A program made the translations under genes and the position numbers. From Actinomycetota bacterium (lineage in GTDB: Bacteria > Actinomycetota > Acidimicrobiia > Acidimicrobiales > RAAP-2), in contig JAJPJD010000049.1 of NCBI GenBank assembly GCA_021324355.1, positions 124,001 to 188,000 on the forward strand: DNA of 64,000 nt, in the 5' to 3' direction. The number at the start of each line of letters is the position of its first letter. The first letter of the stretch is position 1. Below the pieces are notes generated by a model. That model had not been told where the DNA came from and ran no database searches. It saw nothing but the letters and a program-made list of their open reading frames with translations. Of this stretch, positions 5,093 through 22,700 are shown piece after piece.

Positions 5093-5577
5093 TGGGCACG
5101 GAGCAGTCGTCGGACGTGGTGGCAGCTGACCGGCCCCTGCGGATTGGCGAGGTCGCCCGCCAGACCGGCGTCACCCCTCGCACCCTGCGCTACTGGGAGG
5201 AGATCGGCCTGCTCGAGCCGGCCGCCTATCGCGAGAGCGGGGAGCGGCTGTACTCGCCGGCCGAGCGGGATCGGGTCCTGCACATCCGGGAGCTGCAGGA
5301 CCTGCTCGGCCTGACGCTGGCCGAGATCCAAGACGTGCTGGCGTCCGAGGACACCGTCGAGCGGGCTCGCCGGGCGGCGCGGGCCGACGCCCCCACGCTG
5401 AAGCGGCTCCAGCTGCTCTCAGATGCCATCGAGGCCAATCGCCGTCTGGTCGAGCGGATCAACGACCGCCTCCAGCGGGTCATCGAGTTCCGGGACGAGT
5501 GCATCGAGCGGGGCAACAGGATGGCAGCCCGGCGGGCCGAGCTCGAGTCCCAGCTCAGCCGAGCTGGCAAGGGCTAG
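5092..5577 (+). CDS. MerR-family transcriptional regulator
   Basis: A 161-residue DNA-binding regulator. The winged helix-turn-helix starts with LRIGEVARQTGVTPRTLRYW and continues through the second wing (ERLYSPAERDRVLHIRELQ). A long coiled coil (about residues 85-130) should form the dimer, and the short C-terminal part has no cysteine cluster, which argues against a metal sensor. The ATG at 5092 overlaps the MFS stop. It probably controls the MFS operon through the dyad at 3231-3246. Its stop overlaps the convergent oxidoreductase gene by 4 nt. Confidence 0.88.
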   Translation: MGTEQSSDVVAADRPLRIGEVARQTGVTPRTLRYWEEIGLLEPAAYRESGERLYSPAERDRVLHIRELQDLLGLTLAEIQDVLASEDTVERARRAARADAPTLKRLQLLSDAIEANRRLVERINDRLQRVIEFRDECIERGNRMAARRAELESQLSRAGKG

Positions 5578-7034
5578 GCCCGGGCCGGGGCGGGTGGCCC
5601 CGAACGCTCCCCGCCCAGCGGGTGTCCAAGGTCGGCCAGCGCGCGCTGGGCGGCCCACAGGCCGCACATGCCGTGGACGCCGCCGCCCGGCGGCGTCGAG
5701 GCTGAGCACAGGTAGACACCGCGAATGGGCGTGCGGTAGGGGTTCCAGCGCATGGTCGGGCCCACCAGCGTCCGGCGCAGGCCGGCCGCGCCGCCGTTGA
5801 TGTGCCCGCCCACGTAGTTGGGGTTGTAGGCCTCCATGTCCACCGCAGTCATGGTGGACCGGGCGAGGATCAGGTCCCGGAACCCCGGCGCGAACCGTTC
5901 GATCTGGGCCTCGATGGCATCGGTCATGTCCACCGGCGAACCGGGAGGAACGTGGCAGTAGCCCCAGAGAGTGTGGGCACCGGCCGGGGCCCGCTCGGGG
6001 TCGACCACGCCAGGCTGGGCGACGAGGACGAAGGGCTGCTCGGGGTGGCGGCTGGCGTGGACCGCGGCCTCGCTGCGTGCCACCTCTTCGTAGGTTCCGC
6101 CGACATGGACCGTCCCGGCCGCACGGCAGGCCTCGGCCTCCCACGGGACCGGTCCGGACAGGCTCCAGTCGACCTTGCACACGCCGGGGCCGTAACCGAA
6201 GCGCCCCAGTGCCCGGCGGCGGCGGCCGTCGATGCGGTCCCCGGCCAGATCGAGGAGCTGGCGCGGCGAGACGTCGAGCAGGATCGCCTTGGACCTCGGG
6301 AGCTCGTCCAGATGGGTTACCCAGGCCCCGGTGTGGACCTGGCCGCCAAGCGCTCCCAGCTCGGCGCAGAGCGCGTCGACAATCCGCCCGGATCCCCCGG
6401 CGACGACTGGCCAGCCCACCCGGTGTGCCAGCGCCACCAGCACCAGACCGAATGCTGCCGACAGCGGTGCGCTGAGCGGGAGCATGGCGTGCGCGCAGGC
6501 GCCGGCCAAGAGGGCTCGGCCCTCCTCGGTCCCGAAGCGGTCGGCGAGCCGACTGGCGGGGCGCAGGCCTCGAAGGGCGAACCGGGCCACCGAGACGGGG
6601 TGCTCGGGGATCGAGCGGATCGGGCCGAGGAGCGCCGGGAGCAGGTGGTCGAGGTCCGCAACCAGCCGACCCACGACCGAACGGTAGGTCCGGGCGTCGG
6701 CACCCAGCTGTTCTGCGGTGCGCTCGACTGAGTCCTGGACCGCCGCCGCCCGGTCTCCACCGAGCGGATGGGCGAAGGCGGCCGGCGGAGTCTTCAGGTG
6801 GACGCCCCTGGCCACCAGGTCGATCTCGGCGAAGAACGGTGAGGCTGCCAGGAGCGGGTGGACGGCCGCGCAGACGTCGTGGCGGAACCCCGGCAGGGTC
6901 AGTTCTGCCGTCCGACACCCGCCCCCCGGGGAGTCGGCCCCTTCGAACACCTCGACCTCGAGGCCAGCCCGGGCCAGGACCACGGCCGCTGCGAGCCCAT
7001 TCGGGCCCGAGCCGACCACGCAGACGTCGGGCAC
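5574..7034 (-). CDS. FAD-dependent oxidoreductase, phytoene-dehydrogenase-like
   Basis: A 486-residue flavoprotein of the COG1233 phytoene desaturase/amine-oxidase-like group. The dinucleotide-binding motif CVVGSGPNGLAAAVVLARAG is at the extreme N-terminus, with FEGADSPGGGCRT following, and the C-terminal FAD-binding part contains GVYLCSASTPPGGGVHGMCG. Such proteins desaturate or dehydrogenate hydrophobic substrates. I set the start at GTG 7034, just before the Rossmann strand; the longer frame to 7118 would put the TetR operator inside the gene. It is divergent from the P450 gene across a 118-bp region holding that operator, so it may belong to the same regulon. It could oxidise a hydroxylated intermediate made by the P450; that is inference. 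Confidence 0.85.
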   Translation of the reverse strand: MPDVCVVGSGPNGLAAAVVLARAGLEVEVFEGADSPGGGCRTAELTLPGFRHDVCAAVHPLLAASPFFAEIDLVARGVHLKTPPAAFAHPLGGDRAAAVQDSVERTAEQLGADARTYRSVVGRLVADLDHLLPALLGPIRSIPEHPVSVARFALRGLRPASRLADRFGTEEGRALLAGACAHAMLPLSAPLSAAFGLVLVALAHRVGWPVVAGGSGRIVDALCAELGALGGQVHTGAWVTHLDELPRSKAILLDVSPRQLLDLAGDRIDGRRRRALGRFGYGPGVCKVDWSLSGPVPWEAEACRAAGTVHVGGTYEEVARSEAAVHASRHPEQPFVLVAQPGVVDPERAPAGAHTLWGYCHVPPGSPVDMTDAIEAQIERFAPGFRDLILARSTMTAVDMEAYNPNYVGGHINGGAAGLRRTLVGPTMRWNPYRTPIRGVYLCSASTPPGGGVHGMCGLWAAQRALADLGHPLGGERSGPPAPARA

Positions 7035-7073
7035 GGCGGGGCAGCGTACCGTCCGCACCGGGGCTCGCTGGTC

Positions 7074-7101
7074 TTGACGGTGCCCGACTCGGTGGTAACT
7101 T
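7074..7101 (+). promoter_or_regulatory. Promoter of the P450 operon
   Basis: A -35-like TTGACG (7074-7079) and a -10-like TAACTT (7096-7101) are separated by 16 bp. The inverted repeat at 7102-7123 begins directly after the -10, so it would cover the transcription start, the classic position for repression. Not experimentally known; judged from element match and spacing. Confidence 0.5.
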
Positions 7102-7123
7102 GGTGAGTGAGCTAACACTTACT
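7102..7123. promoter_or_regulatory. TetR-type operator, copy 1 (P450 operon)
   Basis: GGTGAGTG (7102-7109), six bases, then CACTTACT (7116-7123). The right arm is identical to copy 2 at 12524-12545 and the left arm matches it at 6 of 8 positions, with the same 6-bp spacer length. It lies between the divergent FAD oxidoreductase and P450 genes. The likely binder is the TetR protein encoded at 8420. Confidence 0.65.
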
Positions 7124-7152
7124 TCATGGGGAGGGACCGAGCAGGTGCTGGC

Positions 7153-8361
7153 GTGACTGTCGAGTACGCCCTCGACTTCTTCGACCCGGCCGTGCAGCGC
7201 GACCCGTACCCGGCCTACGCGGCCATGCGGGAGCTAGGTCCCGTGCTGTGGAACCCGCTCATGGGCGCCTGGATGGTCTGGCGCTACGACGACGTCCTGG
7301 GGGTGCTGAACGAGTGGGAGCGCTATTCGTCGACCGCCATTGGGGGGCGTTCCCGGCGGCAGCCGGGCGAGGGTGCCGAGTCTGACGACAGCTTCGGGGC
7401 TCCGACCATGCTGACCAGCGACCCGCCGGACCACACCCGCTACCGCGGCGTTGTGGCGCGGGCGTTCACGCCGCGAGCGATCGCTGCCCAGGAGCCGGCG
7501 CTGCGGGAGCTGGCGGCGGCGCTGCTCGCCGGCCTGGCGGGAACCGGGTCGTGCGAGGTGGTTGCCTCGCTCTCCTCGCCGTTGCCGGTTCTGGCCATCG
7601 CCACCATGCTCGGTGTCGATCAGGCCGACGTCGTGAGCTTCCGAGACTGGTCCGACGACATCGTCGCCCGGGGCGACCTGCCGACCGACGAGGAGCAGCG
7701 TCTGGCTCGGGCCGCATCGGCGGCCCTGCGCGCCTACTTCTCACGCGAGGTGCAACGCCGCCATCACAAGACCAGCGACGGGACAGATCTGCTGTCCCGG
7801 CTGGTCGAGGCCAACCAGGGAGGGTCGCTCAGCGATGCCGAGCTGTTGGCCTCGTGCATCTTGTTGCTCGTCGCTGGCAACGAGACGACCACCAATCTGA
7901 TTTCGAACATGACGCTCCAGCTTGGTCTTCATCGTGACCAGCGTGACCTGCTTGTTCGCGACCTGGGTTTGATGCCGTCGGCGGTCGAAGAGACCGTTCG
8001 CTTCGACGGACCCGTCCACTGGACGCTTCGCCTGGCCACCGAGGACGTGGAGGTGCAGGGACAGCCGATCAGATCTGGAGAGATGGTTCTGGCCCTGATC
8101 GCAGCGGCCAACCGAGATCCGGACATCTATGACGATCCGGACACCTACGACATCGCCCGAGGCTCGACGACCCATCTCGGGTTCGGGCACGGGATCCATT
8201 ACTGCCTCGGCTCCTCGCTGGCCCGGCTCGAGGCCCGGGTCGCCATGGAGGCCCTGCTCGAGGTGGCTCCCCGTTATCGGGTGGTGCTCGGCGAGGGCGA
8301 ACCCCGCTACACCAGGTCCAATCTCCGCAGCCCCAGAGCGTTGCGGATCACACGGTCATGA
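7153..8361 (+). CDS. Cytochrome P450
   Basis: A soluble haem-thiolate monooxygenase of 402 residues that needs ferredoxin and reductase partners, neither of which is in the window. Visible motifs are the I-helix oxygen-activation sequence AGNETTTN (about residues 240-247), the ExxR pair Glu280-Arg283, and the haem loop FGHGIHYCLG with Cys351 as axial ligand. The overall form is that of bacterial CYP families acting on terpenoids, steroids or fatty compounds. I prefer GTG 7153 over ATG 7126, because the operator ends at 7123 and AGCAGG precedes the GTG. It is first in the P450-TetR-esterase-BVMO series and probably performs the initial hydroxylation. Confidence 0.93.
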   Translation: MTVEYALDFFDPAVQRDPYPAYAAMRELGPVLWNPLMGAWMVWRYDDVLGVLNEWERYSSTAIGGRSRRQPGEGAESDDSFGAPTMLTSDPPDHTRYRGVVARAFTPRAIAAQEPALRELAAALLAGLAGTGSCEVVASLSSPLPVLAIATMLGVDQADVVSFRDWSDDIVARGDLPTDEEQRLARAASAALRAYFSREVQRRHHKTSDGTDLLSRLVEANQGGSLSDAELLASCILLLVAGNETTTNLISNMTLQLGLHRDQRDLLVRDLGLMPSAVEETVRFDGPVHWTLRLATEDVEVQGQPIRSGEMVLALIAAANRDPDIYDDPDTYDIARGSTTHLGFGHGIHYCLGSSLARLEARVAMEALLEVAPRYRVVLGEGEPRYTRSNLRSPRALRITRS

Positions 8362-8419
8362 ACCAGGCGGCCGCCCAAGTCTCGGCTGGCTGGGCCAGCG
8401 CCCAGGGGTGGGGATAGCG

Positions 8420-9091
8420 ATGGCTCGGCGCCGGATGTCGGCCGATCAACGCAAGGCCCAGTTGGCCGACAAGGCCAAGCAGGTCTTCTTGGAGGGCGGG
8501 TACCGAGGGACCACAACCAAGGATGTGGCGGCCGCCGCCGGGGTGAGCGAAGCGCTGGTGGTCAAGCACTTCGGCTCCAAAGAGGAGCTGTTCCGCCACT
8601 CGATGATCGAGCCGCTGCTGCAGATGCTGAGCGAGGCCGTGCGCCGGGAACCGCCGGTCGGCGCTGATGTCGCCCAGCGCTGGACCAGCCTGCACGACTT
8701 CTACCGCGCCTGGTCGGTGGTGGTGCGCGATGAGGGCCCGCTCCTATGGGCCGTGCTCCGTGAGGCCCAGGAGTTCCCCGACGCCATTGCCTCCATCGCG
8801 GAGCTGTTCCGGAGTCACATCGTGCAGGTGGCCGAGAAGATCGCTCGCTCGCTCGAGCGGGAGAACTTCAGAGAGTTCGACGTGGAAGTGGCGACCTATA
8901 TGGGCTTGGCCGGCGCCACCATTGCCGGGCTCATGCGTGGTGACCCCGAGCCATTCCTCGATGAGGTTGTCGACCTGATCTTCCTGGGGATCTTGACCCC
9001 GGCCGGCCGCCGGGAGCTCGCCGAGGCCGGGGGGCGTCTCGGGCGTGCCGGCGGGTCGCGGCTGCCATCGTCAGCCGATCGAGAGGACTGA
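8420..9091 (+). CDS. TetR-family repressor of the oxidation/uptake cluster
   Basis: A 223-residue regulator with an N-terminal helix-turn-helix (DVAAAAGVSEALVVKHFGSK, about residues 33-52) and an all-helical ligand-binding domain ending in a short polar tail. It sits 58 bp after the P450 and 4 bp before the esterase gene, within the operon. The two matching inverted repeats at 7102 and 12524 are good candidates for its operators, so it may coordinate degradation and import. The inducer is presumably a substrate or an intermediate. GTG 8408 is an alternative start four codons upstream. Confidence 0.9.
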   Translation: MARRRMSADQRKAQLADKAKQVFLEGGYRGTTTKDVAAAAGVSEALVVKHFGSKEELFRHSMIEPLLQMLSEAVRREPPVGADVAQRWTSLHDFYRAWSVVVRDEGPLLWAVLREAQEFPDAIASIAELFRSHIVQVAEKIARSLERENFREFDVEVATYMGLAGATIAGLMRGDPEPFLDEVVDLIFLGILTPAGRRELAEAGGRLGRAGGSRLPSSADRED

Positions 9092-9095
9092 TGCA

Positions 9096-10583
9096 GTGAA
9101 CGTCACGGCAGACATCGAACAGGGCCGGGTCTCGGGTGTGAGGGAACGGGGTGTGAGCCGCTTCCTCGGCCTCCCGTATGCCGCCGCCCCGTTCGGGGAC
9201 CGTCGCCTGCGGCCGCCGGAGCCGCCACCGCGCTGGCCGGGCGTCCGAGACGCCAGCTGGTTCGGGCCGACGGTTCCCAAGAGTCCGTATCCGTGGCCGT
9301 TTGACCAGCTGTTCGAGGAGCCGGAGATCGCGGGGGAAGACTGCCTCAACCTGAACATCTGGACCCCCGAGCCATCGGCGAGCCTTCCGGTGTTCGTCTG
9401 GGTCCACGGGGGTGCCTTCGTGAACGGCTCGGGAGCGGTCCCCCAGTACGACGGGACGGCGTTCGCCCGAGACGGCGTGGTGACCGTGACCATCAACTAC
9501 CGGCTCGGCGCCGACGGGTTCCTCGACACCGGTGACGAGCACCCCAACATCGGCATCCTCGACCAGCTCGCGGCGCTTCGCTGGGTCAAGGAGAACATCG
9601 CGGCCTTTGGCGGTGACCCGGATCGGGTCACCGTGGGGGGAGAGTCGGCTGGGGCGATGAGCGTCGCCACCCTCATCGCCTGTCCGGCCGCCACGGGGCT
9701 GTTCGGGCGAGCCATCCTGGAGAGCGGCGCCGGGCACCACGCACTGACCAGGCCGACCGCGCAGCGGGTGGCAGCCGAGCTGGCCTCCCGGCTCGGCGTG
9801 CCGGCCACCCGCCCGGGGATCGCCTCGGCGCCGCTCTCCGCACTGCTGGCGACCCAAGCCGCCTTGTCGGCCGAGATTCAGCAGGCCCCCGATCCCGGCC
9901 GCTGGGCCGAGCTGGCCGCCAATCGGATGCCCTTCGAGCCGGTGGTCGACGGTTCGACCGTCCCGGCGTTGCCCATCGAGGGGGTTCGCAGCGGCGCCGG
10001 GGCCGAGGTCCCGGTGCTCATCGGGACCAACCGTGACGAGAACCTGCTCTTCTTGGCCCCGAGCGGCGCTCTGGACGTGGTGGACGCTGCGATGCTCCGA
10101 GCGACAGTCGCCGGCTACGGCTTCGCCGATCCGGAATCGGTGGTGGCTGCCTATGCCGAGGCCGATCGGTCGTGGTCGCCGGGAGGAGTGCTGGCGGCGG
10201 TGACCACGGACTGGATGTTCCGAATCCCGGCTATCCGCTTCGCCGAGGCCCGGCATGCCGCGCCGGCCAGCACGCACGTGTACGAGTTCTGCTGGCCCTC
10301 GCCGGTCCGTGGCGGGACCCTCGGGGCGTGCCATTTCCTCGAGATCCCGTTCGTGTTCGACACCCTGGCCACCCCGGGCGCAGAGCTGTTCACCGGACCA
10401 GACGCGCCGCAGGAGCTAGCCGACGAGGTGCACGGGAGCTGGGTCCGGTTCATCAGCGGTGATGACCTGGGCTGGCAGCCGTACACGCCGGCCAGCAGAA
10501 CCGTCCGCATCTTTGGCGGTCAAGAACCGATCGAGGAGGACCCGGGCCGAGCTCGGCGCGAGCTGTGGGAGGGCCTCCGCTAG
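9096..10583 (+). CDS. Type-B carboxylesterase
   Basis: A 495-residue alpha/beta-hydrolase of the carboxylesterase type-B family. It has the early motif FLGLPYAAAPFGDRRL, the oxyanion-hole segment VWVHGGAFVNGSG, and the nucleophile elbow GGESAGAMS with Ser184. The EDCLNLNIW block is diagnostic of the family. The GTG at 9096 is preceded by GAGAGGA, and the stop of the TetR gene is only 4 bp before. In front of a BVMO it is the natural candidate to hydrolyse the ester or lactone product. A second member of the family lies at 60589. Confidence 0.9.
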   Translation: MNVTADIEQGRVSGVRERGVSRFLGLPYAAAPFGDRRLRPPEPPPRWPGVRDASWFGPTVPKSPYPWPFDQLFEEPEIAGEDCLNLNIWTPEPSASLPVFVWVHGGAFVNGSGAVPQYDGTAFARDGVVTVTINYRLGADGFLDTGDEHPNIGILDQLAALRWVKENIAAFGGDPDRVTVGGESAGAMSVATLIACPAATGLFGRAILESGAGHHALTRPTAQRVAAELASRLGVPATRPGIASAPLSALLATQAALSAEIQQAPDPGRWAELAANRMPFEPVVDGSTVPALPIEGVRSGAGAEVPVLIGTNRDENLLFLAPSGALDVVDAAMLRATVAGYGFADPESVVAAYAEADRSWSPGGVLAAVTTDWMFRIPAIRFAEARHAAPASTHVYEFCWPSPVRGGTLGACHFLEIPFVFDTLATPGAELFTGPDAPQELADEVHGSWVRFISGDDLGWQPYTPASRTVRIFGGQEPIEEDPGRARRELWEGLR

Positions 10584-10655
10584 CTCGAGCCCGAGGACCC
10601 TGGATTGTTGAGCAGCATCGGCACGGTGCACCGAGAGAAAGGCGAGCACCCGATC

Positions 10656-12470
10656 ATGACCACCACGACCTTCGACAAGGAGGCCATCGTCAGGAAGTAC
10701 GCCTACGAGCGTGACAAGCGCTTGCGGCCTGACGGTCCGGACCAGTACGTCCGGCTGACCGGGCGGTTCGCCCACTATGCACAAGACCCCTACATGCCGA
10801 TCGTCGAGCGGGAGCCGGTCACCGACGACGTCACCTTCGCATTCATCGGCGGGGGGTTCGCTGGGCTCCTGGTCGGTGCCCGCCTGAAGCAGGCCGGCAT
10901 CGAGAGCGTCCGAATCATCGACAAGGCGGGTGACTTCGGCGGCACCTGGTACTGGAACCGGTACCCGGGTGCGATGTGCGACACCGCATCGCTGGTCTAC
11001 ATGCCGCTGCTCGAGGAGACCGACTACATGCCGACCGAGAAGTACGCCCACGGCCCGGAGATCCTCGATCACTGCCGTCGGATCGGCAAGCAGTTCGATC
11101 TCTACACCAACGCGCTATTCCATACCCAGGTCACCGACCTGTGGTGGGACGAGGAGCGCCGCCGGTGGCGGATCCGGACAAATCGTGGGGACGACTTCAC
11201 CGCTCGCTTCGTCGGCATGGGCACCGGGCCACTCCAGGTGCCCAAGCTGCCGGGGATCCCAGGGATCGAGGACTTCGCCGGCCACTCCTTCCACACCAGC
11301 CGTTGGGACTACGCGTACACCGGCGGCAGCCCCGAGGGTTCGCCCATGGATCGTCTGGCCGACAAGACGGTGGCGATCATCGGGACCGGCGCGACCGCCG
11401 TCCAGTGCGTCCCGGAGCTGGCCAGGGCGTGCAAGGAGCTCTACGTGTTCCAGCGAACCCCGTCATCGGTGGACGTCCGGGGCAACCACCCGCTTGACCC
11501 CGCCTGGTTCGCCAAGGTCGCCTCGCCCGGCTGGCAGCAGCGGTGGCTGGACAACTTCACTGCCAACTGGGAAGCGCTGGCCGGAGTGGCTGTCGACGAG
11601 GAGCTCGACGACCTCGTCCAGGATGGCTGGACCGACCTGGCGCGCCGGCTGCGAGCCATCATGCGGAGCATCCCTCCACAAGAGCGCTCGGTGGAGCGCA
11701 TGATGGAGGCGTTCGAGGACGCCGACATCGCCAAGATGGAGGAGATTCGATCCCGGGTCGGCGAGATCGTCTCCGATCCGCGGACGGCCGAGAGCCTCAA
11801 GCCGTGGTATCGCCAGCTCTGCAAGCGGCCGTGCTTCCACGACGAGTACCTCCAGGCCTTCAACTTCCCCAACGTCCACCTCATCGACACCGACGGCAAG
11901 GGCGTCGAGCGGATCACCGAACGGGGCGTCGTCGCCGCCGGGACCCTCTACGAGGTGGACTGCATCATCTACGCATCAGGGTTCTTCGTGGAGTTCGGGA
12001 CCGGCCTTCCCGAGCGGGCGGGGTACGACCCCAGAGGCCGGGGCGGGACTCCGCTGTCTGCGCACTGGGCCGACGGGATGCGGACCCTCCACGGCATCTA
12101 CGTCCATGGCTTCCCGAACCTCTTCCTCGTCCAGCTCGGCCAGGGCGCGGCGCTCGCCTCGAACGTCCCCCACAACTACGTGGAGAGCTCCAAGACGATC
12201 GCCCATGTCGTACGTCACGCGCTCACCGGCGGTTTCGACGTCGTCGAGGCGACTGCCCAGGCCGAGGAGGCCTGGGTCGACCTGTTGGTCACGCACGGCC
12301 GAGCGTTCGGTTCCGAGGACTGCACGCCCGGCTACTACAACAACGAGGGCCGACCGGCCGGGCCGAAGGAGCGACGGAACTTCGGCTATCCGTTCGGCGC
12401 AATGGCCTTCTTCCGGCTGATGGAGGACTGGCGGCGCTCGGGCAGCTTCGACGGCCTGCAGTTCGGGTGA
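10656..12470 (+). CDS. Baeyer-Villiger monooxygenase (class B flavoprotein)
   Basis: A 604-residue FAD/NADPH enzyme that inserts oxygen next to a carbonyl, turning ketones into esters or lactones. The FAD Rossmann motif FIGGGFAGLLVGARL starts near residue 63 and the NADPH motif AIIGTGATAVQ near residue 241. Between them lies the BVMO fingerprint FAGHSFHTSRWD (residues 207-218), which fits FxGxxxHxxxW[P/D]. The long N-terminal extension (about 60 residues) matches the larger BVMOs such as phenylacetone and cyclododecanone types. ATG 10656 is chosen because of the GAGAAAGGCGAG upstream. It is last gene of the first operon, immediately before the importer operon. Confidence 0.92.
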   Translation: MTTTTFDKEAIVRKYAYERDKRLRPDGPDQYVRLTGRFAHYAQDPYMPIVEREPVTDDVTFAFIGGGFAGLLVGARLKQAGIESVRIIDKAGDFGGTWYWNRYPGAMCDTASLVYMPLLEETDYMPTEKYAHGPEILDHCRRIGKQFDLYTNALFHTQVTDLWWDEERRRWRIRTNRGDDFTARFVGMGTGPLQVPKLPGIPGIEDFAGHSFHTSRWDYAYTGGSPEGSPMDRLADKTVAIIGTGATAVQCVPELARACKELYVFQRTPSSVDVRGNHPLDPAWFAKVASPGWQQRWLDNFTANWEALAGVAVDEELDDLVQDGWTDLARRLRAIMRSIPPQERSVERMMEAFEDADIAKMEEIRSRVGEIVSDPRTAESLKPWYRQLCKRPCFHDEYLQAFNFPNVHLIDTDGKGVERITERGVVAAGTLYEVDCIIYASGFFVEFGTGLPERAGYDPRGRGGTPLSAHWADGMRTLHGIYVHGFPNLFLVQLGQGAALASNVPHNYVESSKTIAHVVRHALTGGFDVVEATAQAEEAWVDLLVTHGRAFGSEDCTPGYYNNEGRPAGPKERRNFGYPFGAMAFFRLMEDWRRSGSFDGLQFG

Positions 12471-12523
12471 GCGCCGGGGCCTGAGCGCACCCGGCGGCCA
12501 GGCCCCGACCCTTGTCAAGAGAA

Positions 12524-12545
12524 AGTAAGTGTGTTATCACTTACT
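12524..12545. promoter_or_regulatory. TetR-type operator, copy 2 (importer operon)
   Basis: AGTAAGTG (12524-12531), spacer TGTTAT, CACTTACT (12538-12545): a perfect inverted repeat with 8-bp arms. It is the best-conserved partner of the element at 7102. A -35-like TTGTCA lies at 12512-12517, and a -10 such as TATCAC (12535-12540) would fall inside the repeat, consistent with repression. Confidence 0.7.
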
Positions 12546-12630: not shown

Positions 12631-13854
12631 ATGCATCGCACCACGGCGTCGCGTCTGGCGGCCGTCGGCGCCACACTGGCGCTCACGGCGACCGCCTGGA
12701 TGGCAGGGGCGAGCTCCGGCTCGGCCGGAGCGGCCAGCAAGGCCACCAGATCGAGCAGCATCGTGATCGGCGTGGCCAACAACGAGGGCCAGGGCATCTC
12801 GGTGCCCGAGTTCCGCTACGGGGCGCTGGCGGCGGTCAAGTACTTGAACGCGACCGGGGGTATTCACGGCCACCAGCTGAAGGTCGTCACCTGCATCGAT
12901 GACGGCTCGCCGGAGGGTTCGATCAACTGCGCGAACAAATTCGTCGCGGCTCATGCCGCCGTCTACTTCGCCGGGATCGACGACGGGGCGGACTCGGCCA
13001 TCCCCATCCTCAGCTCGGCAAACATCCCGTATGTGACCGAGTTTCCCTGGGGGAGCGTCCAGCGGACCAGTGCTGATTCGTTCGCGCTGGGCGGAGGCGA
13101 CACCGCATTCTTCATCGCCCCACTCCACGCCTTAAAGGAAGCCGGCGCGAGCAACGTCGCGCAGTTCTACTACGACATCCCGACCTCCCAGGCCCTGCTC
13201 CCGATCGTTCAGGCCATCGCGTCCGGGCTCGGCTTGAAGGTGATCCCGATCGCAGTCTCGGCGACCAACCCGGACTGGACGTCTGCCGTCGCGACCGCCC
13301 AGGCCGATGGCGCGAAGTCCATGTGGGGCATCCTCCAGGAGTCCGACTGCACCAACCTGGTCCGGGCAGCCCGTTCGGCTGGCTTCCATGGCCCGATCGC
13401 AGTCGGTTCGTGCTCGGCGTACATCAACGCGCTGGGGAACCAGGCGGCGGGCACGCTCACCGTGTGGCCCTACTACTTCCCTCAGCTGTACTCGGTGGCC
13501 CCAGCATCGATCAAACCGCAGATCAAGACCTACGAGAAGTACATGGACGCGTCCGGGTACAAGAAGGACCTGAACGGCTTCGCCACTGCCTCGTTCGCGT
13601 CGATGGTCGAGTTGGGCGAGGTGATGAAGGGGATCGACGGACCGGTGAGTGGCGCCAGCCTCCTGGCCGCGCTCAAGACCGCCGATGTCCCGGGCTTCAT
13701 GGGCCCCCAGGTCGACTGCGCCGCCCATGTCTTCGGTGCCACCGAGCCGGCCGGCTGCAATGCCAAGGTCCTCCTGCTCAAGGTGGTGGCGACCCGCACA
13801 GGACCGGTGCGCAAGCTCGAGCAGGCCGGGTACCTGAACACCGCGGCCGGCTGA
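12631..13854 (+). CDS. ABC importer substrate-binding protein (LivK/periplasmic-binding type I)
   Basis: A 407-residue exported binding protein. The signal peptide spans about residues 1-36 (hydrophobic AAVGATLALTATAWMAG, then small residues ending AGAASKA). No lipobox cysteine is present, so attachment to the membrane by lipid is not evident. The mature part starts with IVIGVANNEGQGISVPEF and has the two-lobed fold of the branched-chain amino acid receptor family, which also binds aromatic acids, amides and other organics. It is first gene of the importer operon behind operator copy 2. In this setting the ligand is more likely the compound attacked by the P450/BVMO than an amino acid. Confidence 0.88.
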   Translation: MHRTTASRLAAVGATLALTATAWMAGASSGSAGAASKATRSSSIVIGVANNEGQGISVPEFRYGALAAVKYLNATGGIHGHQLKVVTCIDDGSPEGSINCANKFVAAHAAVYFAGIDDGADSAIPILSSANIPYVTEFPWGSVQRTSADSFALGGGDTAFFIAPLHALKEAGASNVAQFYYDIPTSQALLPIVQAIASGLGLKVIPIAVSATNPDWTSAVATAQADGAKSMWGILQESDCTNLVRAARSAGFHGPIAVGSCSAYINALGNQAAGTLTVWPYYFPQLYSVAPASIKPQIKTYEKYMDASGYKKDLNGFATASFASMVELGEVMKGIDGPVSGASLLAALKTADVPGFMGPQVDCAAHVFGATEPAGCNAKVLLLKVVATRTGPVRKLEQAGYLNTAAG

Positions 13855-13890: not shown

Positions 13891-16758
13891 GTGAAAGACG
13901 GCCTGATCTTCCTCCTCACCGGCTTTGGCGGGGGATCGATCTTCGCCGCCTTGGCCCTCGGCCTGGTCCTGATCTATAAGGCCACCGGGGTCATCAACTT
14001 CGCCGCCGGGGCGATGGGTGCATGGTGCGCCTACGTCTACAACGACTTGCACACGGCCGGGACTCTGGCCTTTCCGGTGATCGGCCTGCCCGGGTCGGCG
14101 CACCTGTTCGGGTCGGGCCTAGGCGTCGTCCCGTCGTTGGTGGTCGCCGCCCTCTACGGCGGGCTGCTCGGGGCCGCGACCTACCTGCTCGTGTTCCGCC
14201 CCATCCGGACCGCCCCGGTCTTGGCAAAGGTGGTCGCCTCGGTCGGGGTCATGCTGGCCGTTCAGGCCCTGATCGTCGAGCGGTTCGGTGACACCCCGGT
14301 GGTTGTCGACCCGATCTTGCCGGCGTCGACCGTCCGGATCGGCAACCTCGGGATCCCTGAGCAAGTGTTCTGGCTGGCCGGGATCGTCCTGGTGGTCACC
14401 GTCGGCTTGACCGTCTGGTTCCGCGTCTCGCGGACCGGACTGGCCATGCGGGCCGCGTCGACGAGCGAATTCAGCGCCTCACTGGCCGGGTTCTCGCCCA
14501 ACCGCCTCGGTGCCATCGCCTGGACCGGCGCGTCGTGCCTGGTCGGCTTCCTCGTGGTGTTGGCCACCCCGATCGCCGGCCTGAATGACACCAGCTACAC
14601 CTTGTACGTCGTCCCGGCGCTGGCCTGCGCCCTGGTCGGCCGGCTCACCTCCATCGGGCCGGCGGTGCTCGCGGGCCTTGGCCTCGGGATGGTCGATGCC
14701 GAGATCACCTTCTTGTCCTCCAAGCCTTGGTGGCCGTCGTGGGCCAACACCAGCGTCTCGGACGCGATCCCCTTCGTGGTGATCGTGGTCACCCTGTTCC
14801 TCCTGGGCAAGTCGCTGCCGTCGCGCGACGACGCACCAAGGAGCCGATTGCCGCGGGTGCCCCGGCCGAGGGTGCGCCCGGTCGTGGTTGTGGCGCTCAT
14901 GGCCGTCGGGGTGGGGATCCTGGCCGGCACCGGGGGAACGATCCGCTTCGGCTTCATCGTCACCTTGTCGATGGTGGTGGTGTCTCTGTCGATCGTCGTG
15001 TTGACCGGGCTGCTCGGCCAGGTCTCGCTGGCCCAGGCGGCGTTCGCCGGCATCGGGGGCTTCGCACTGTCCAAGTTCAGTATCGAGCTCGGGATCGGGT
15101 TTCCGTGGGCCCCCCTGCTGGCGGCGGTGGTGGCCGCGGTGGTGGGGGTGATCGCCGGCCTCCCTGCCCTGCGGATCCGGGGCATCCAGTTGGCGGTGGT
15201 GACCGTTGCCATGGCGTTCGCCTTCGAGCAGGTGCTCTTCTCGAATCCCTCGTTCAACGGTTCGAGCGGCAACCCGGTGGCCGAGCCGAGGCTCTTCGGA
15301 TGGGATCTGTCGATCAGGGCAGGCTCGGACATCGCCCGCCTGCCGTTCGGCATCCTGTGCCTCGTCGTGGTCTGCCTGGCCAGCCTGGCTGTCACCAACC
15401 TCATGCGCAGCAGCACCGGCCGACGCTTTCTGGCGGTTCGCTCCAACGAGCGTGCCAGCGCCGCGGTGGGCATCGGCGTGACCGCGACCAAGCTGATCGG
15501 GTTCGGCCTCTCAGCCTTCCTCGCCGGTCTTGGAGGCACGCTGATCACCTACAGCTACGGGTCGGTCTCGGTCGAGTCCTTCACCACGCTGGTCGGCATC
15601 TCGTGGCTGGTGTTCGCCTACCTGGGTGGTATCACCAGCGTGGGCGGAGCTGTCAGCTCGGCGACCTTCGTCACCTTGGGCATCGCGTTCGTCATCGTGA
15701 ACAAGTTCGTTGCCGCGTCCAACGAGGCCTACCTCCTGGTCTCGGCGGTGGGGCTCGTCGTGTCGGTGATCTTCAACCCCGAGGGGCTGGCCGGTCGGTG
15801 GCGGGCCCTCGTGGCCAGGACGCCACTCGGGCGGCGGGGAACGGTCCGTCGGCGCGCTGCCGTGACCGAGCCGGAGGGTCCGCCCGACGGCCCCTGGGCC
15901 CCTCCTGACCCAGCCGAGCTCCAACCACTCATCCGGGAGGCCCGGCTGGCGATCTCCGGCCTGACCGTCCGATATGGCGGGCTGGTCGCCCTGGACGGCC
16001 TCAGCCTCGTCGTTGGCTCGGGCCAGGTGGTGGGCCTGATCGGTGCCAACGGTGCCGGCAAGACCACCGCGATCGACGCGATCAGCGGCTTCGCCCCCTA
16101 CCGAGGCACCGTCGAGCTCTGCGGGGTGTCGCTCGACGGCGATGGGCCGCACCTGCGGGCCCGGGCCGGGGTGGCCCGTACCTGGCAGTCCTCGGAGCTG
16201 TTCGACGACCTGACCGTGCTCGAGAACATGCAGGTGGCCAGCGAGAGCGGCTCGGTCGCGGCGGCGCTGCGCGACTGCGTGTGGCCACGGCGCGCCGGGA
16301 GCGAGCAGGCCAAGGGCTGGCTGGAATGGTTCGGCCTGGAGGAGACCGCCGACCGCTCCCCGGAGGAGCTGAGCTTGGGCCAGCGCAAGCTGGTGAGCCT
16401 GGCCCGAGCCCTCGCTCGGGGCCCCAGGATCGTCCTGGCCGACGAACCGGCGGCCGGGCTCTCGACCGCCGAGACCGCGGTCCTCGGGCGGGCATTACGG
16501 CGGCTGGTCGCCACCCACGACATCGGGGTGCTGCTCGTCGACCACGATGTCGGCCTGGTCACCGAGATCTGCGACTACGTCTACGTCCTCAGCTTCGGAA
16601 CCCTGATCGCCGAAGGGACGCCGGCCGAGGTCCGCGCCGACCCCTCCGTGATCGCGTCCTACCTCGGGGCGGAGTTCCAGGCTGTCGACCAGCTGGGCCC
16701 ACCCGGCGCCGGTCCCGGCGGGCCCAGCGCGCTCGCTCCGACCACGAGTGGGGACTGA
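13891..16758 (+). CDS. Fused Liv-type ABC permease-permease-ATPase (LivH-LivM-LivG)
   Basis: A 955-residue inner-membrane protein combining three usually separate subunits. Residues 1-300 form a LivH-like permease, about 320-640 a LivM-like permease (LVLTG-type core SIVVLTGLLGQVSLAQAAFA), and about 685-930 an ATPase. The ATPase has Walker A GANGAGKTT (about 714-722), signature LSLGQ (about 827), Walker B IVLADEP and the switch HDVG. A charged, proline-rich linker (about 650-685) joins permease and ATPase. The GTG start is 36 bp after the binding-protein stop. Permease/ATPase fusions of this family occur in actinobacteria, but a complete H-M-G chain is less usual. The partner LivF follows at once. 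Confidence 0.9.
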   Translation: MKDGLIFLLTGFGGGSIFAALALGLVLIYKATGVINFAAGAMGAWCAYVYNDLHTAGTLAFPVIGLPGSAHLFGSGLGVVPSLVVAALYGGLLGAATYLLVFRPIRTAPVLAKVVASVGVMLAVQALIVERFGDTPVVVDPILPASTVRIGNLGIPEQVFWLAGIVLVVTVGLTVWFRVSRTGLAMRAASTSEFSASLAGFSPNRLGAIAWTGASCLVGFLVVLATPIAGLNDTSYTLYVVPALACALVGRLTSIGPAVLAGLGLGMVDAEITFLSSKPWWPSWANTSVSDAIPFVVIVVTLFLLGKSLPSRDDAPRSRLPRVPRPRVRPVVVVALMAVGVGILAGTGGTIRFGFIVTLSMVVVSLSIVVLTGLLGQVSLAQAAFAGIGGFALSKFSIELGIGFPWAPLLAAVVAAVVGVIAGLPALRIRGIQLAVVTVAMAFAFEQVLFSNPSFNGSSGNPVAEPRLFGWDLSIRAGSDIARLPFGILCLVVVCLASLAVTNLMRSSTGRRFLAVRSNERASAAVGIGVTATKLIGFGLSAFLAGLGGTLITYSYGSVSVESFTTLVGISWLVFAYLGGITSVGGAVSSATFVTLGIAFVIVNKFVAASNEAYLLVSAVGLVVSVIFNPEGLAGRWRALVARTPLGRRGTVRRRAAVTEPEGPPDGPWAPPDPAELQPLIREARLAISGLTVRYGGLVALDGLSLVVGSGQVVGLIGANGAGKTTAIDAISGFAPYRGTVELCGVSLDGDGPHLRARAGVARTWQSSELFDDLTVLENMQVASESGSVAAALRDCVWPRRAGSEQAKGWLEWFGLEETADRSPEELSLGQRKLVSLARALARGPRIVLADEPAAGLSTAETAVLGRALRRLVATHDIGVLLVDHDVGLVTEICDYVYVLSFGTLIAEGTPAEVRADPSVIASYLGAEFQAVDQLGPPGAGPGGPSALAPTTSGD

Positions 16759-16762
16759 GCAG

Positions 16763-17488
16763 GTGGGACCGAGACCGGCCATCGAGGTCGAGGACCTGAC
16801 CGCCGGCTACCACGGGATGGCCGTGCTCCGCGGCCTGTCGATCACGGCCCATTTCGGCGCGGTGACCGCGCTGCTCGGCGCGAACGGCGCCGGCAAGACG
16901 ACCCCGCTGCTCACGATCGCCGGGTTCGTTCGGCCGATGGCGGGCCGGGTCCTGGTGATGGGCCAGCCGATCGAGCGCCGGGCCCCCCACGAGCTCGTCC
17001 GCATGGGCCTGAGCCTGGTCCCAGAGGGCCGCGGGCTGGTGTACGAGCTGACGGTCAGCGAGAACCTCCGCCTCCACACCCGGCGCGGCGCAAAGCCGCT
17101 CGTGGGCGACGTGCTTGACCTGTTCCCGGCACTACGCCAGCTCGCCTCGCGCCGGGCCGGCCTTTTGTCGGGAGGTGAGCAGCAGATGCTGGCGTTGGCC
17201 TGTGCGATCGTCTCAGGCGGCCGGGTGCTCCTGATCGACGAGATGAGCCACGGGCTGGCGCCGGTCGTGGTGGAGCGGCTCCTCCCGACCGTGCGAGCCG
17301 TAGCCCAGGAGCGAGATTTGGCGGTGGTCCTGGTGGAGCAGCAGGTGGACGCCGCGCTGCGGGTCGCCGACTTCGTGTACGTGCTCAACCGGGGCCAGGT
17401 CGCGCTGGCCGGCACTGCCCAGGAGATCGGGGGTCGGACCGACGTGGTCGAGGCCAGCTATCTGGGGGTGACCGAGCCCGGCCGTTGA
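16763..17488 (+). CDS. Liv-type ABC importer ATPase (LivF)
   Basis: A 241-residue cytosolic ATPase that should pair with the ATPase domain of the fused permease. It shows Walker A GANGAGKTTP, Q-loop and LivF-type segment LVPEGRGLVYELTVSENL, signature LSGGEQQMLALA, Walker B VLLIDEMSHGLAP and a switch region (VEQQV) with Gln in place of the usual His, as is normal in LivF. The Walker A threonines are followed by Pro instead of the usual Thr or Leu. GTG 16763 is chosen (GGGGA eight bases upstream); GTG 16748 would overlap the preceding gene. Confidence 0.9.
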   Translation: MGPRPAIEVEDLTAGYHGMAVLRGLSITAHFGAVTALLGANGAGKTTPLLTIAGFVRPMAGRVLVMGQPIERRAPHELVRMGLSLVPEGRGLVYELTVSENLRLHTRRGAKPLVGDVLDLFPALRQLASRRAGLLSGGEQQMLALACAIVSGGRVLLIDEMSHGLAPVVVERLLPTVRAVAQERDLAVVLVEQQVDAALRVADFVYVLNRGQVALAGTAQEIGGRTDVVEASYLGVTEPGR

Positions 17489-17536: not shown

Positions 17537-17552
17537 GCGAACATATGTTCGC
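17537..17552. promoter_or_regulatory. LexA (SOS) box
   Basis: GCGAACATATGTTCGC is a perfect 16-bp palindrome matching the actinobacterial/Bacillus-type SOS box CGAACnnnnGTTCG. It stands 14 bp ahead of the first gene of a mutagenesis cassette. A -10-like TACCCT at 17553-17558 follows it directly, so LexA would block RNA polymerase. Confidence 0.88.
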
Positions 17553-17566
17553 TACCCTCTCTGGGG

Positions 17567-18253
17567 GTGAGCGTCGGCACCCCCCTGCCCCGGCTGTCCG
17601 ACCAGGGCCCGGTCCTGGCCGGTGCGCAGGTGCTCCCGGCCCCCGGTCCGCTCGCACCGTTCCTGCCCGGCTCGGGGCTCCGTCGCGGCAGCTTGGTCAG
17701 CCTCTCAGGCCAAGGGAAGACCACCCTGGCGCTCTCCCTCCTCTCAGCGCCGGTCGCCCAGGGGGCATGGGCGGCGGTGGTGGGGCTGCCGGAGCTCGGC
17801 GTCGAGGCGGCGGCAGTGATGGGAGTGGACCTGACCAGAGTGGCGCTTGTCCCCGAGCCCGGCCCGTCCTGGCCGAACGTCCTGGCCGTCCTCCTCGACT
17901 CCCTCGACCTGGTGGTGGTCAGGCCTCCCCGGCGGCCGCGCCCCGCCGAGGCCCGCCGCCTCGTCGCCCGGGCCCGGGCCGGCCGTGCCGTCCTCTGCGT
18001 GCTCGGGGGTTGGCCGGAGGCACCGGACGTGGCCCTGGCGGCCGAGACCGAGGCGTGGGTCGGGCTGGGCCGGGGGTCGGGCTGGCTCCGGGCCCGCCGC
18101 GGCCGGGTGGTCGTCACCGGCCGCGGCAGCGCCGGGCGGCCGATCGCCGTGCCCTGCTGGCTCCCCGGTCCCGACGGCCAGCTGGCGGCCCGTGGCCCGG
18201 CCGGGATGGCAGTCGCGCCGGAAGCCCCCGAGGCAGCGCCGTGGGCGGGGTAG
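17567..18253 (+). CDS. imuA': ImuA'-type mutasome protein
   Basis: A 228-residue RecA/SulA-like protein of the SOS mutagenesis cassette. In mycobacteria ImuA' works with ImuB and DnaE2 in damage-induced translesion synthesis. Here a degenerate P-loop is visible (SLVSLSGQGKTTLALSLL, about residues 42-59), followed by strands such as WAAVVGLPELGVEAA. The GTG lies 8 nt after the -10-like TACCCT with no clear ribosome-binding site, so the mRNA may be leaderless. The stop overlaps imuB by 13 nt. The assignment rests on both sequence form and gene order. Confidence 0.82.
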   Translation: MSVGTPLPRLSDQGPVLAGAQVLPAPGPLAPFLPGSGLRRGSLVSLSGQGKTTLALSLLSAPVAQGAWAAVVGLPELGVEAAAVMGVDLTRVALVPEPGPSWPNVLAVLLDSLDLVVVRPPRRPRPAEARRLVARARAGRAVLCVLGGWPEAPDVALAAETEAWVGLGRGSGWLRARRGRVVVTGRGSAGRPIAVPCWLPGPDGQLAARGPAGMAVAPEAPEAAPWAG

Positions 18254-19788
18254 TCCGGACCCTGGCAGCCTGGTGCCCGGACTGGCCGGTCACCGCAGCC
18301 GGCTTCGGGGCCGACGTCCCGGTGGCGGTGGTGGCGGCCGGCCGGGTGGTCGCGTGCTCGGCTGCTGCCCGCGACGCTGGGGTGCTGCTCGGCATGCGTC
18401 GCCGGGCTGCCGAGGCGAGCTGTCCTGGTCTGCGCATCGTCCGGCGCGACGAGGGCCGGGAGGCTCGCGCCTTCGAGCCGGTGGTGGTCGCGGTCTCGGC
18501 GCTCGTCCCAGCGGTGGAGGTGACTCGGCCGGGGCTGCTGTCCCTGGCGGTCTTCGGCCCGGCCCGCTACCACGGCGGCGAGCAGCCGCTCGCGGCGGCG
18601 GTGGCCGCCCGGGCGCAGGCGGCAGTCGCCGCCGCCTGCGGCGTCCCCGAGCCGGTGGTGCAGGTGGGGATCGCCGACGGTCCCTTCGCCGCCGGGTTGG
18701 CCGCCCGCCGGCAGGCAGTGGTCCCACCCTCGGGCACCGCCGCGTTCTTGGCCCCCTTCCCGGTGACGGTCCTGGGCCGACCCGAGCTGGCCGGGCTCCT
18801 CGTACGCCTGGGCATCAGGACCCTGGGGGCCTTGGCGGCGCTGGAGGAGGGCCCGGTGGCGGCCCGGTTCGGGCCGGAGGGAGTGAGGGCCCACCGCCTG
18901 GCCCGGGGGCTGGACGACCGGCCGCTGCGCCTGGAGGCCCCGCCGGCCGCGCTGGTCGCCACGGCCGAGCTCGACCCGCCGGCCGAGCGCGTCGACGTCG
19001 CCGCCTTCGCCGGACGGCGGCTCGGCCAGGAGCTCGCGGTTCAGCTGGAGGCGGCCGGGCTGGCCTGCACCCTGCTCGAGGTCGAGATCGAGACCGAGCA
19101 CGGCGAGCGGCTCGTCCGACGGTGGCGAGCCGAGGTCGATCTCGACGCCTCGGCCATGGGGGAGCGGCTGCGCTGGCAACTGGAGGGGTGGCTGTCGGGG
19201 ACCGCTGTCGAGGCCCCGAGCGCGGGGGTCACCCGCCTGCAGCTCCGGGCGGTTGCCGTGGCGCCGGCGGCCGGGCGCCAGGTGGGGTTCTGGGGCGGGC
19301 GCTCGGACGCCGATCGGCGGGCCGTCCGGGGGCTCGACCGGCTGCGGGCCATGCTCGGCCCCGAGGCGGTGCTCACCGGGATGGTGGTCGGGGGTCGGGG
19401 ACCGGGCGACCGGGCGCTGCTGGTCCCGTGGGGGGACACCCGGCCGGCGGCCCCCGAGCGTGCCCCGTGGCCGGGCGCCCACCCGGTGCCCCCGCCGGCA
19501 CTGGTGCACCGGCCCCCCCGCCCGGCCCTGGTCACCGGGGGTGACGGCCGGCCGGTCGGGGTGAGCGCCCGGGGATGCCTGAGCGGCCTCCCCGAGCAGG
19601 TGGCGGTGGAGGGAGGTCGGCCGAGCCCCGTCGTGGCATGGGCCGGGCCGTGGCTCTACGACGAGCGGTGGTGGGATCCGCCCGCCCGTCGCCGCCTGGC
19701 GCGGTTCCAGCTGGTCGACGAGGACCAGCACGCCTACCTGTGCTGCGTCGAGCGCACTCGGTGGTTCGTCGAGGCCACCTATGACTGA
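18241..19788 (+). CDS. imuB: ImuB, catalytically inactive Y-family polymerase homologue
   Basis: A 515-residue adaptor of the mutasome. It begins with VRTLAAWCPDWPVTAAG, in which the acidic metal-binding residues of active Y-family polymerases are missing. The little-finger-like part and the characteristic C-terminus (PWLYDERWWDPPARRRLARFQ and CCVERTRWFVEATYD) match ImuB. By analogy with mycobacteria it bridges the beta clamp, ImuA' and DnaE2. The GTG start overlaps imuA' and the stop overlaps dnaE2 by 8 nt, so the three genes are translationally coupled under the LexA box. Confidence 0.9.
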   Translation: MGGVVRTLAAWCPDWPVTAAGFGADVPVAVVAAGRVVACSAAARDAGVLLGMRRRAAEASCPGLRIVRRDEGREARAFEPVVVAVSALVPAVEVTRPGLLSLAVFGPARYHGGEQPLAAAVAARAQAAVAAACGVPEPVVQVGIADGPFAAGLAARRQAVVPPSGTAAFLAPFPVTVLGRPELAGLLVRLGIRTLGALAALEEGPVAARFGPEGVRAHRLARGLDDRPLRLEAPPAALVATAELDPPAERVDVAAFAGRRLGQELAVQLEAAGLACTLLEVEIETEHGERLVRRWRAEVDLDASAMGERLRWQLEGWLSGTAVEAPSAGVTRLQLRAVAVAPAAGRQVGFWGGRSDADRRAVRGLDRLRAMLGPEAVLTGMVVGGRGPGDRALLVPWGDTRPAAPERAPWPGAHPVPPPALVHRPPRPALVTGGDGRPVGVSARGCLSGLPEQVAVEGGRPSPVVAWAGPWLYDERWWDPPARRRLARFQLVDEDQHAYLCCVERTRWFVEATYD

Positions 19789-22700
19789 CCGGGCCGACTA
19801 CGCCGAACTGCACGCCCACTCCAACTTCAGCTTCCTGGACGGCGCGTCTCACCCCGAGGAACTGGTCCACGAGGCCGCCCGGCTGGGTCTCGGGGCGCTG
19901 GCCCTCACCGACCACAACGGCCTCTACGGCGTGGTCCGCTTCGCCGAGGCGGCCCGGGCCCGGGGGCTGCCCACCGTGCTCGGCGCCGAGCTGACCCTCG
20001 ACCTCGGGCGCCCCCAGCACGGGGTCGCCGACCCCGAGGGAACCCACCTGGTCGTCTTGGCCCGCGGCCCCGAGGGCTATGCCCGCCTCAGCCGGGCCAT
20101 CGCCCAGGCCCAGCTGGCCGGGGGAGAGAAGGGACGGCCGACCTTCGACCTCGAGACGCTCTTCGACGCCCACGGCGGCCAGTGGCTGGTGCTCACCGGG
20201 TGCCGCAAGGGGGTGGTCCCGGCGGCGCTGGCCGCCGAGGGCCCAGCCGCGGCCGCCCGGGCTCTCGACCGGCTGGTGGAGGGGTTCGGGCGGGACAACG
20301 TCGCGGTCGAACTCACCGACCACGGCCAGCCGCTCGACTCGGCTCGCAACGACGCGCTGGCCCGGCTCTCCGTCTCCCGGCGGATCGACCCGGTGGCCAC
20401 GGCCAATGCCCACTACGCCCGCCCCTCGGGCCACCGGGTCGCCGCCGCCCTGGCCTCGGTGCGGGCCCGGCGCTCCCTCGACCAGATGGACGGCTGGCTC
20501 CCGGGGGGCCCGGGCGCCCACCTGCGCTCGCCGGCCGAGCAGGCTCGGCGGTTCGCCCGGTACCCCGGCGCGGTCGAGCGGGCGGGCGAGCTCGGCCGGG
20601 CCCTGGCCTTCGACCTGCGGCTGGTGGCCCCCGGGCTGCCGCCGTTCCCGGTCCCCGAGGGCCTGGACGAGCAGCGCTACCTGACCGTCCTGGTGGAGGA
20701 AGGGGCGGCCCGTCGCTACGGGCCCCGGGGGGCCGAGCGGGTGCCTGGCGCGTGGGCCCAGCTCGACCACGAGCTGGACGTCATCGCGACCCTCGGGTTC
20801 GCTGGGTACTTCCTGGTGGTGTGGGACATCGTCCAGTTCTGCCGGCGCCAGGGCATCTACTGCCAGGGGCGGGGCTCCGCTGCCAACTCGGCGGTCTGCT
20901 TCGCCCTCGGGATCACCAACGCCGACGCGGTACGGCTCGGCTTGCTCTTCGAGCGGTTCTTGTCCCCCGAGCGCGACGGGCCGCCGGACATCGACGTCGA
21001 CATCGAGAGCGGCCGGCGGGAGGAGGTGATCCAGTACGTCTACGACCGCTACGGCCGCTCCCATGCCGCCCAGGTGGCCAACGTCATCACCTACCGGCCC
21101 CGCTCGGCCGTGCGCGACGTTGGCAAGGCGCTTGGCTACGCCCAGGGGACGGTGGATGGATGGTCCCGCCGCATGGAGCCCCGGCGCCCGCTCGCCCAGG
21201 CCGGCCCCGACGGCGAGGTCCCGGCCCCGGTTCTCGAGCTGGCCGCCAGGATCGAAGGGTTCCCCCGCCACCTGGGGGTCCACTCCGGCGGGATGGTCAT
21301 CTGCGACCGCCCGGTGGTGGAGGTCTGCCCGGTGGAGTGGGCCCGGGCGCCGGGGCGGACCGTGCTGCAGTGGGACAAGGAGGACTGCGCGGCGGTCGGC
21401 CTGGTCAAGTTCGACCTGCTGGGGCTGGGGATGCTGGAGGCGCTGCATCGGGCGGTGGACCTGGTGGCGGCCTCCGGTGGCCCCACCGTGGACCTGGCCG
21501 AGCTCCCCCAGGAGCCCGAGGTCTACGACATGCTCTGTGCGGCCGACACGGTCGGGGTGTTCCAGGTGGAGAGCCGGGCCCAGATGGGCACCCTGCCGCG
21601 CCTGCGGCCCCGGTGCTTCTACGACCTGGTGATCGAGGTGGCGCTCATCCGGCCCGGCCCCATCCAGGGCGACTCCGTCCACCCCTACCTGCGCCGCCGC
21701 AACCACGAGGAGGAGGTCACCTACCTCCATCCGCTGCTCGAGCGGTGCCTCGAGCGGACCCTCGGGGTCCCGGTGTTCCAGGAGCAGCTGATGCAGATGG
21801 CCATCGACGTGGCCGGCTTCACCCCGGCCGAGTCCGATCGCCTCCGCCAGGCCATGGGGTCCAAGCGCTCGGCCCAGCGGATGGAGGAGCTGCGGGAGCG
21901 CTTCTACGCCGGGATGGCCGCCCGGGGGATCGTGGGCCGGGTGGCCGACGAGATCTTCGCCAAGATGGCTGCCTTCTCCTCCTTCGGGTTCCCCGAGTCC
22001 CACGCGGTGTCCTTCGCCTACCTGGTCTACGCCTCGGCCTGGCTGAAACTGCACTACCCGGCGGCGTTCACCGCCGCGCTGCTCAACTCCCAGCCGATGG
22101 GGTTCTGGTCGCCGCGGACCCTGGTGGCCGACGCCCGCCGCCACGGGGTGGAGGTGCGCCGGGCCGAGGTCAACGCGAGTGGGGTGGAGGCGGGGCTCGA
22201 GCCCACCGAGGTGCCCGGCCGGCCGGCCATCCGGCTCGGGATCGGTGGGATCCGGGGCCTGGGGGAGGCCGCGGCCGCCCGGGTTGCCGCCGGTCGCCCC
22301 TACCGGGACCTGGAGGACCTGGCCCGGCGGGCCCAGCTGAGCGTTGGTCAGCTGGAGGCGCTGGCCATGGCCGGGGCGACGGCCAGCCTGGACGGCGGAG
22401 ACCGACGGGCGTCGCTCTGGGCGGCTGGCGCCCTGGGGCGGCTCGGCCCCGCCGGTCTGCCCGGGATGGTGGTCGGGGCGACCGCCCCCCCGCTGCCGGC
22501 GCTGGACCGGGTGGAGCAGACCGTGGCCGACCTGTGGGCGACCGGGGTCTTAGTCGACTCCTCCCTGACCGAGCTGGTCCGAGACGAGCTCGACCGGCGG
22601 GGCGTGGTGACGGCGGCCGAGCTGGCCGGGGTCGAGCATGGCCGTCGGGTCGAGGTGGCCGGGGTGGTGACCCACCGTCAGCGCCCCGAGACGGCCAACG

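Follow-up and report, generated by a model that had tools for sequence, protein, structure and literature searches.

A candidate TetR operator pair links a P450/Baeyer-Villiger monooxygenase/esterase operon to the adjoining LIV-type importer in uncultured Acidimicrobiales

One TetR-family repressor very probably governs both a P450/Baeyer-Villiger monooxygenase (BVMO)/esterase operon and the adjoining operon of an ABC importer, as judged from the genomic sequences. The window, that is, the whole analysed stretch of 64,000 nucleotides, belongs to an Acidimicrobiales metagenome-assembled genome (MAG) of 2.45 Mb (64 contigs, 96% complete). The computational support comes from the sites themselves, their conservation, the synteny of the genes, the genome-wide uniqueness of the sites and the match between recognition helix and site. 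The arrangement is well supported and belongs to an ordinary type of bacterial regulation; the remaining interest lies in the substrate of the pathway and in the LIV-type importer.

Candidate operators and the genes of the two operons

The pattern RGTRAGTG-N6-CACTTACT has exact matches at 7102-7123 and 12524-12545, where the initial annotation had placed two 22-bp sites. There is no third match in the window even at up to three mismatches (chance expectation 0.24 matches), and none of 100 shuffles reached four matches. Both sites had been described as matching inverted repeats. This holds for the second one, a perfect 8+6+8 palindrome, whereas the first, with the layout GGTGAGTG-AGCTAA-CACTTACT, is an imperfect palindrome with six of eight arm pairs matching. 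Scattered matches are absent from the host genome: at up to two mismatches the scan yields solely these two sites, and the remaining matches all have three mismatches and are about as frequent as those to a reversed-pattern control. The features of the locus are as follows.

7102-7123, plus strand: candidate operator 1, GGTGAGTGAGCTAACACTTACT, upstream of the oxidation operon; exact match
7153-8361, plus strand: cytochrome P450, 402 aa (Pfam PF00067)
8420-9091, plus strand: TetR-family regulator, 223 aa (PF00440), second gene of the oxidation operon
9096-10583, plus strand: type-B carboxylesterase, COesterase (PF00135, E=7e-94)
10656-12470, plus strand: type I BVMO, long-N-terminus branch, PtlE/5mq6-like
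12524-12545, plus strand: candidate operator 2, AGTAAGTGTGTTATCACTTACT, upstream of the importer operon; exact match
12631-13854, plus strand: substrate-binding protein of the LIV/HAAT type (PF13458)
13891-16758, plus strand: fused LivH-LivM-LivG, 955 aa, one ORF (PF02653 twice, PF00005, PF12399)
16748-17488, plus strand: LivF-type ATPase (PF00005) with Walker A and the LSGGEQ signature

All motifs sought in the P450, the esterase, the BVMO and the ATPases were found. The P450 contains the heme-ligand motif FxxGxxxCxG (FGHGIHYCLG), the I-helix threonine motif (AGNETT) and ExxR (ETVR). It probably starts at GTG 7153, an alternative being ATG 7126 directly downstream of operator 1, and its orthologs in four species are 66-67% identical. 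The carboxylesterase has the nucleophile motif GESAG and 68-71% identity to homologs in four species. The BVMO has the hallmarks of type I enzymes, defined as two GxGxxG/A Rossmann motifs (here GGGFAG and GTGATA) and the fingerprint FxGxxxHxxxW[PD] (here FAGHSFHTSRWD). Its best NCBIfam model is PtlE, neopentalenolactone D synthase (E=4e-216). However, the score of 718.7 bits misses the curated cutoff of 1100, and thus the protein is not filed as PtlE. The closest solved relative is PDB 5mq6 (E=1e-150), which we take to be a polycyclic ketone monooxygenase. Host contig 14 encodes at 23591-25339 (L157) another BVMO from this branch, 58% identical, with neither the operator nor other genes of the cluster.

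The importer has the complete set of LIV/HAAT components: a Peripla_BP_6 binding protein, two BPD_transp_2 permeases and the LivG and LivF ATPases. The binding protein is 77-79% identical to homologs in four species and shows only weak similarity to amino-acid binders of known structure (best E=5e-7); its AlphaFold model (pLDDT 42) is too poor for use. The two permeases and the LivG ATPase form a single protein, and this fusion is kept across the genus. The regulon had been thought to comprise nine genes, but there are seven ORFs, because LivH, LivM and LivG are encoded by one of them; the earlier count probably listed the fused subunits separately. The divergent FAD oxidoreductase gene (5574-7118, minus strand), formerly considered as a possible tenth member, has to be dropped as well: no homolog was found at the loci of four relatives, and thus it is not a conserved member of the cluster.

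Two further observations concern the importer and its surroundings. The LivH-LivM-LivG fusion aligns nearly end to end with other Acidimicrobiales stretches (L177-L179) at 47-52% identity. Directly downstream of the importer, at 17545-22915, an ImuB-like Y-family polymerase is followed by an error-prone DnaE2; these genes are not kept at this place in the relatives.

Conservation of the sites within the genus

The genus has six other genomes, and four of these have an ortholog of the TetR gene, in each case within a syntenic cluster. Each of these relatives has exactly two sites genome-wide, one in front of the oxidation operon's first gene, the other in front of the binding-protein gene (in G436 the front of the oxidation operon, with its site, lies on a separate contig). 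The sites of different species are identical at 19-22 of 22 positions, whereas the flanking 22-bp blocks, compared without gaps, agree at 2-12 of 22 positions, which is near random, the very close L057 and L058 being the one pair that departs from this. Operator 1 has 19-21 of 22 positions in common with the oxidation-operon sites of the four species, and operator 2 has 20-21 of 22 in common with their importer sites. The position of the palindromes, upstream of the regulator's own operon and of the candidate target genes, is kept in five species.

The other two members of the genus, G443 and G448, lack the TetR ortholog and the importer with its binding protein, and their P450 is merely 45% identical. 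Neither genome contains a site at up to one mismatch; G448 has one match with two mismatches. Hence, within the genus the site and the TetR gene co-occur in five genomes of five and are both absent in two of two.

The clusters of the relatives contain two additional genes, for a short-chain dehydrogenase (SDR) upstream of the P450 and for an epoxide hydrolase downstream of the BVMO, both absent from the operon in the window. As the dehydrogenase gene is missing, operator 1 directly precedes the P450 gene here. The nearest dehydrogenases of the host genome are 53% identical. A relative of the epoxide hydrolase (64-70% identity to the cluster enzyme) is found on host contig 29 at 14288-15398 (L075, L076). 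It is split into two adjoining pieces, the second of which contains stops, and possibly is frameshifted; contig 29 contains no operator site within three mismatches.

A search for a wider regulon yielded no additional sites in the genomes of the genus. In 397 genomes of the order, sites with one mismatch were not more frequent than in the reversed-pattern control, and when these sites were checked for nearby TetR genes, L022 alone had one, with a different helix. Elsewhere in the phylum, 17 stretches of other genomes encode relatives of the BVMO (52-67%), none of them with the P450, esterase and importer neighbours as a set, and where related SBP/LivHMG systems occur in the order, they come without the oxidation operon. 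Thus, in the genomes sampled, the BVMO/P450/esterase/importer combination looks specific to the genus. Literature searches produced no description of the regulon or the operator.

The TetR protein and the proposed control

As had been annotated initially, the first operon does encode a TetR regulator. It has the TetR_N helix-turn-helix (HTH) domain and an all-helical fold (AlphaFold pLDDT 82), and its best Foldseek matches are members of the TetR family. Its recognition helix is SEALVVKHFGSKEELF. In the orthologs from the genus the N-terminal HTH is near invariant, as against a full-length identity of 60-62%.

When GTDB genomes were scanned with the TetR alignment, the matches were members of the genus, some distant Mycobacterium proteins and one TetR at locus L081 from a 'Proteobacteria' MAG. 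The latter is 40% identical overall, and its recognition helix is identical (SEALVVKHFGSKE). A palindrome GGTGAGTG-N6-CACTTACC at L081:9934-9955 precedes its start codon by approximately 25 bp, the single match in 20.6 kb, and none of 60 simulated sequences has a match. Since this locus was found by the protein search alone, it provides an independent test. The neighbour at L081 is a divergent ORF whose product is predicted to be secreted, instead of the P450/BVMO operon. The site was not found with TetR homologs having other helices (SENLIFRYF in Mycobacterium, TKPLLYQHF in Acidimicrobiales, and similar ones), and the viral contigs searched contained no relatives of the TetR. The L096 TetR has a similar helix, SEALLYKHF (SEALLYKHFPSKESLF), and a related AGTAAGT palindrome just upstream of its gene, which suggests a family of operators with variable spacing. 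This palindrome, AGTAAGT-N4-ACTTACT, lies at L096:1685-1706, directly upstream of the HTH-coding stretch.

These observations make it highly probable that both palindromes are operators of the TetR encoded in the operon, through which the oxidation and importer operons would be under ligand-released repression. One could suppose that the palindromes are bound by some other regulator encoded elsewhere, the position of the TetR gene in the operon being coincidental, and indeed the host genome has further TetR-like proteins. However, the joint presence and joint absence of site and gene in the genus argue against this, as does the distant L081 protein, whose own gene is preceded by the site in other genomic surroundings, and we consider this explanation improbable.

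Operator 1 is directly downstream of TTGACG (7074-7079) N16 TAACTT. Operator 2 begins 5 bp after TTGTCA (12513-12518), and thus would overlap the importer promoter. In a consensus scan no sigma-70 promoter reached the threshold at either operator, the hexamers being weak, and so the placement of the promoters is putative. Without inducer, a TetR dimer would occupy both palindromes. At 7102-7123 it would sit immediately after the -35/-10-like hexamers that precede the oxidation operon, at 12524-12545 it would cover the importer promoter region, and both operons, including tetR itself, would be blocked. An imported ligand or a pathway intermediate would then free TetR, and import and oxidation would be induced together. 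We infer TetR binding, repression, release by a ligand and the type of substrate; the choice of repression rather than activation follows the analogy with the family. The TetR-family proteins studied so far are mostly repressors, many of them freed by a small-molecule ligand (PMC3511530).

Even less probable is that the palindromes are RNA stem-loops, a leader hairpin or a terminator, rather than DNA operators. As RNA, the arms are able to form a stem that includes G-U wobbles, the R/T variation would preserve G-U on the plus-strand RNA, and 12545-12524 (minus strand) was flagged when terminators were scanned for. However, the stem has only three G-C pairs, the coding strand has no T run, and an Rfam search gave no match. 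Moreover, the TTGTCA hexamer 5 bp upstream of the importer palindrome would place the latter in the promoter, outside the transcript, and the L081 site also precedes a TetR gene. Chance or a recent duplication without function would agree with there being two copies only in the host genome, but is refuted by the sites being conserved in four species while their flanks are near random, and disagrees with the low expected number of matches in the window, so that it hardly deserves consideration. Thus the local TetR regulon proposed in the initial annotation gains support, on the sequence level, from the lack of scattered sites, the footprints in four species, the co-absence in two genomes and the L081 helix with its site.

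Candidate pathway and known systems

The substrate would be taken up by the LIV-type ABC importer and hydroxylated by the P450. Oxidation to a ketone would follow, in the relatives by the short-chain dehydrogenase that is absent from the window's operon. The BVMO would then insert oxygen, and the carboxylesterase would hydrolyse the ester or lactone. Hydroxylation, dehydrogenation, Baeyer-Villiger oxidation and hydrolysis, joined in the relatives by an epoxide hydrolase, follow the scheme by which cyclic ketones and monoterpenoids are generally broken down (PMC7794910). The cluster likely serves to import an alicyclic or terpenoid-like ketone and to cleave it by way of the BVMO, and the substrate of the importer would be narrowed to compounds handled by the BVMO pathway. 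We tentatively suggest a more specific possibility, to which we give somewhat less than even weight: a TetR subfamily whose SEALVVKHFGSKE helix reads an operator code of its own (RGTRAGTG-N6-CACTYACY) may, in this uncultured Acidimicrobiales genus, control both the P450/SDR/BVMO/esterase/epoxide-hydrolase pathway for an alicyclic or terpenoid ketone and a LIV-type importer dedicated to that ketone. If true, both the pathway and the use of a LIV-type importer for such a ketone would be new. Regulatory logic that ties import to oxidation as cleanly as in these uncultured Acidimicrobiales can seldom be read from sequence alone, and the TetR with its candidate operators is a ready-made pair for a probable ketone/terpenoid sensor.

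The closest models of the BVMO are PtlE of the pentalenolactone pathway and PDB 5mq6. They differ from the cluster described here in setting: PtlE acts in antibiotic biosynthesis, and the 5mq6 enzyme is from a fungus.

In Mycobacterium tuberculosis, EthR is the TetR-family repressor of the adjoining BVMO gene ethA, and it is known for controlling one gene from one intergenic region. The cluster considered here is similar in that a TetR-family regulator would control an adjoining BVMO gene. Unlike EthR, it has two separate palindromes, and a multi-enzyme operon and an ABC importer would be under one regulator. EthA and its repressor EthR are named in PMC5403819. The pdc cluster of Caenibius tardaugens, associated with progesterone, consists of a BVMO, a luciferase-like monooxygenase, TetR and LuxR, so that here, too, a catabolic BVMO adjoins a putative TetR repressor (PMC12239570). 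No importer is among these four genes, and the main text of the paper (PMC12239570) contains neither the word esterase nor the word P450. Degradation of limonene and carvone in Rhodococcus erythropolis DCL14 follows the same reaction logic: it proceeds via hydroxylation, a dehydrogenase, a BVMO yielding a lactone and a lactone hydrolase, and one of its branches includes an epoxide hydrolase (PMC7794910). The cluster described here differs from the DCL14 system by its LIV-type importer and by candidate TetR operators of its own.
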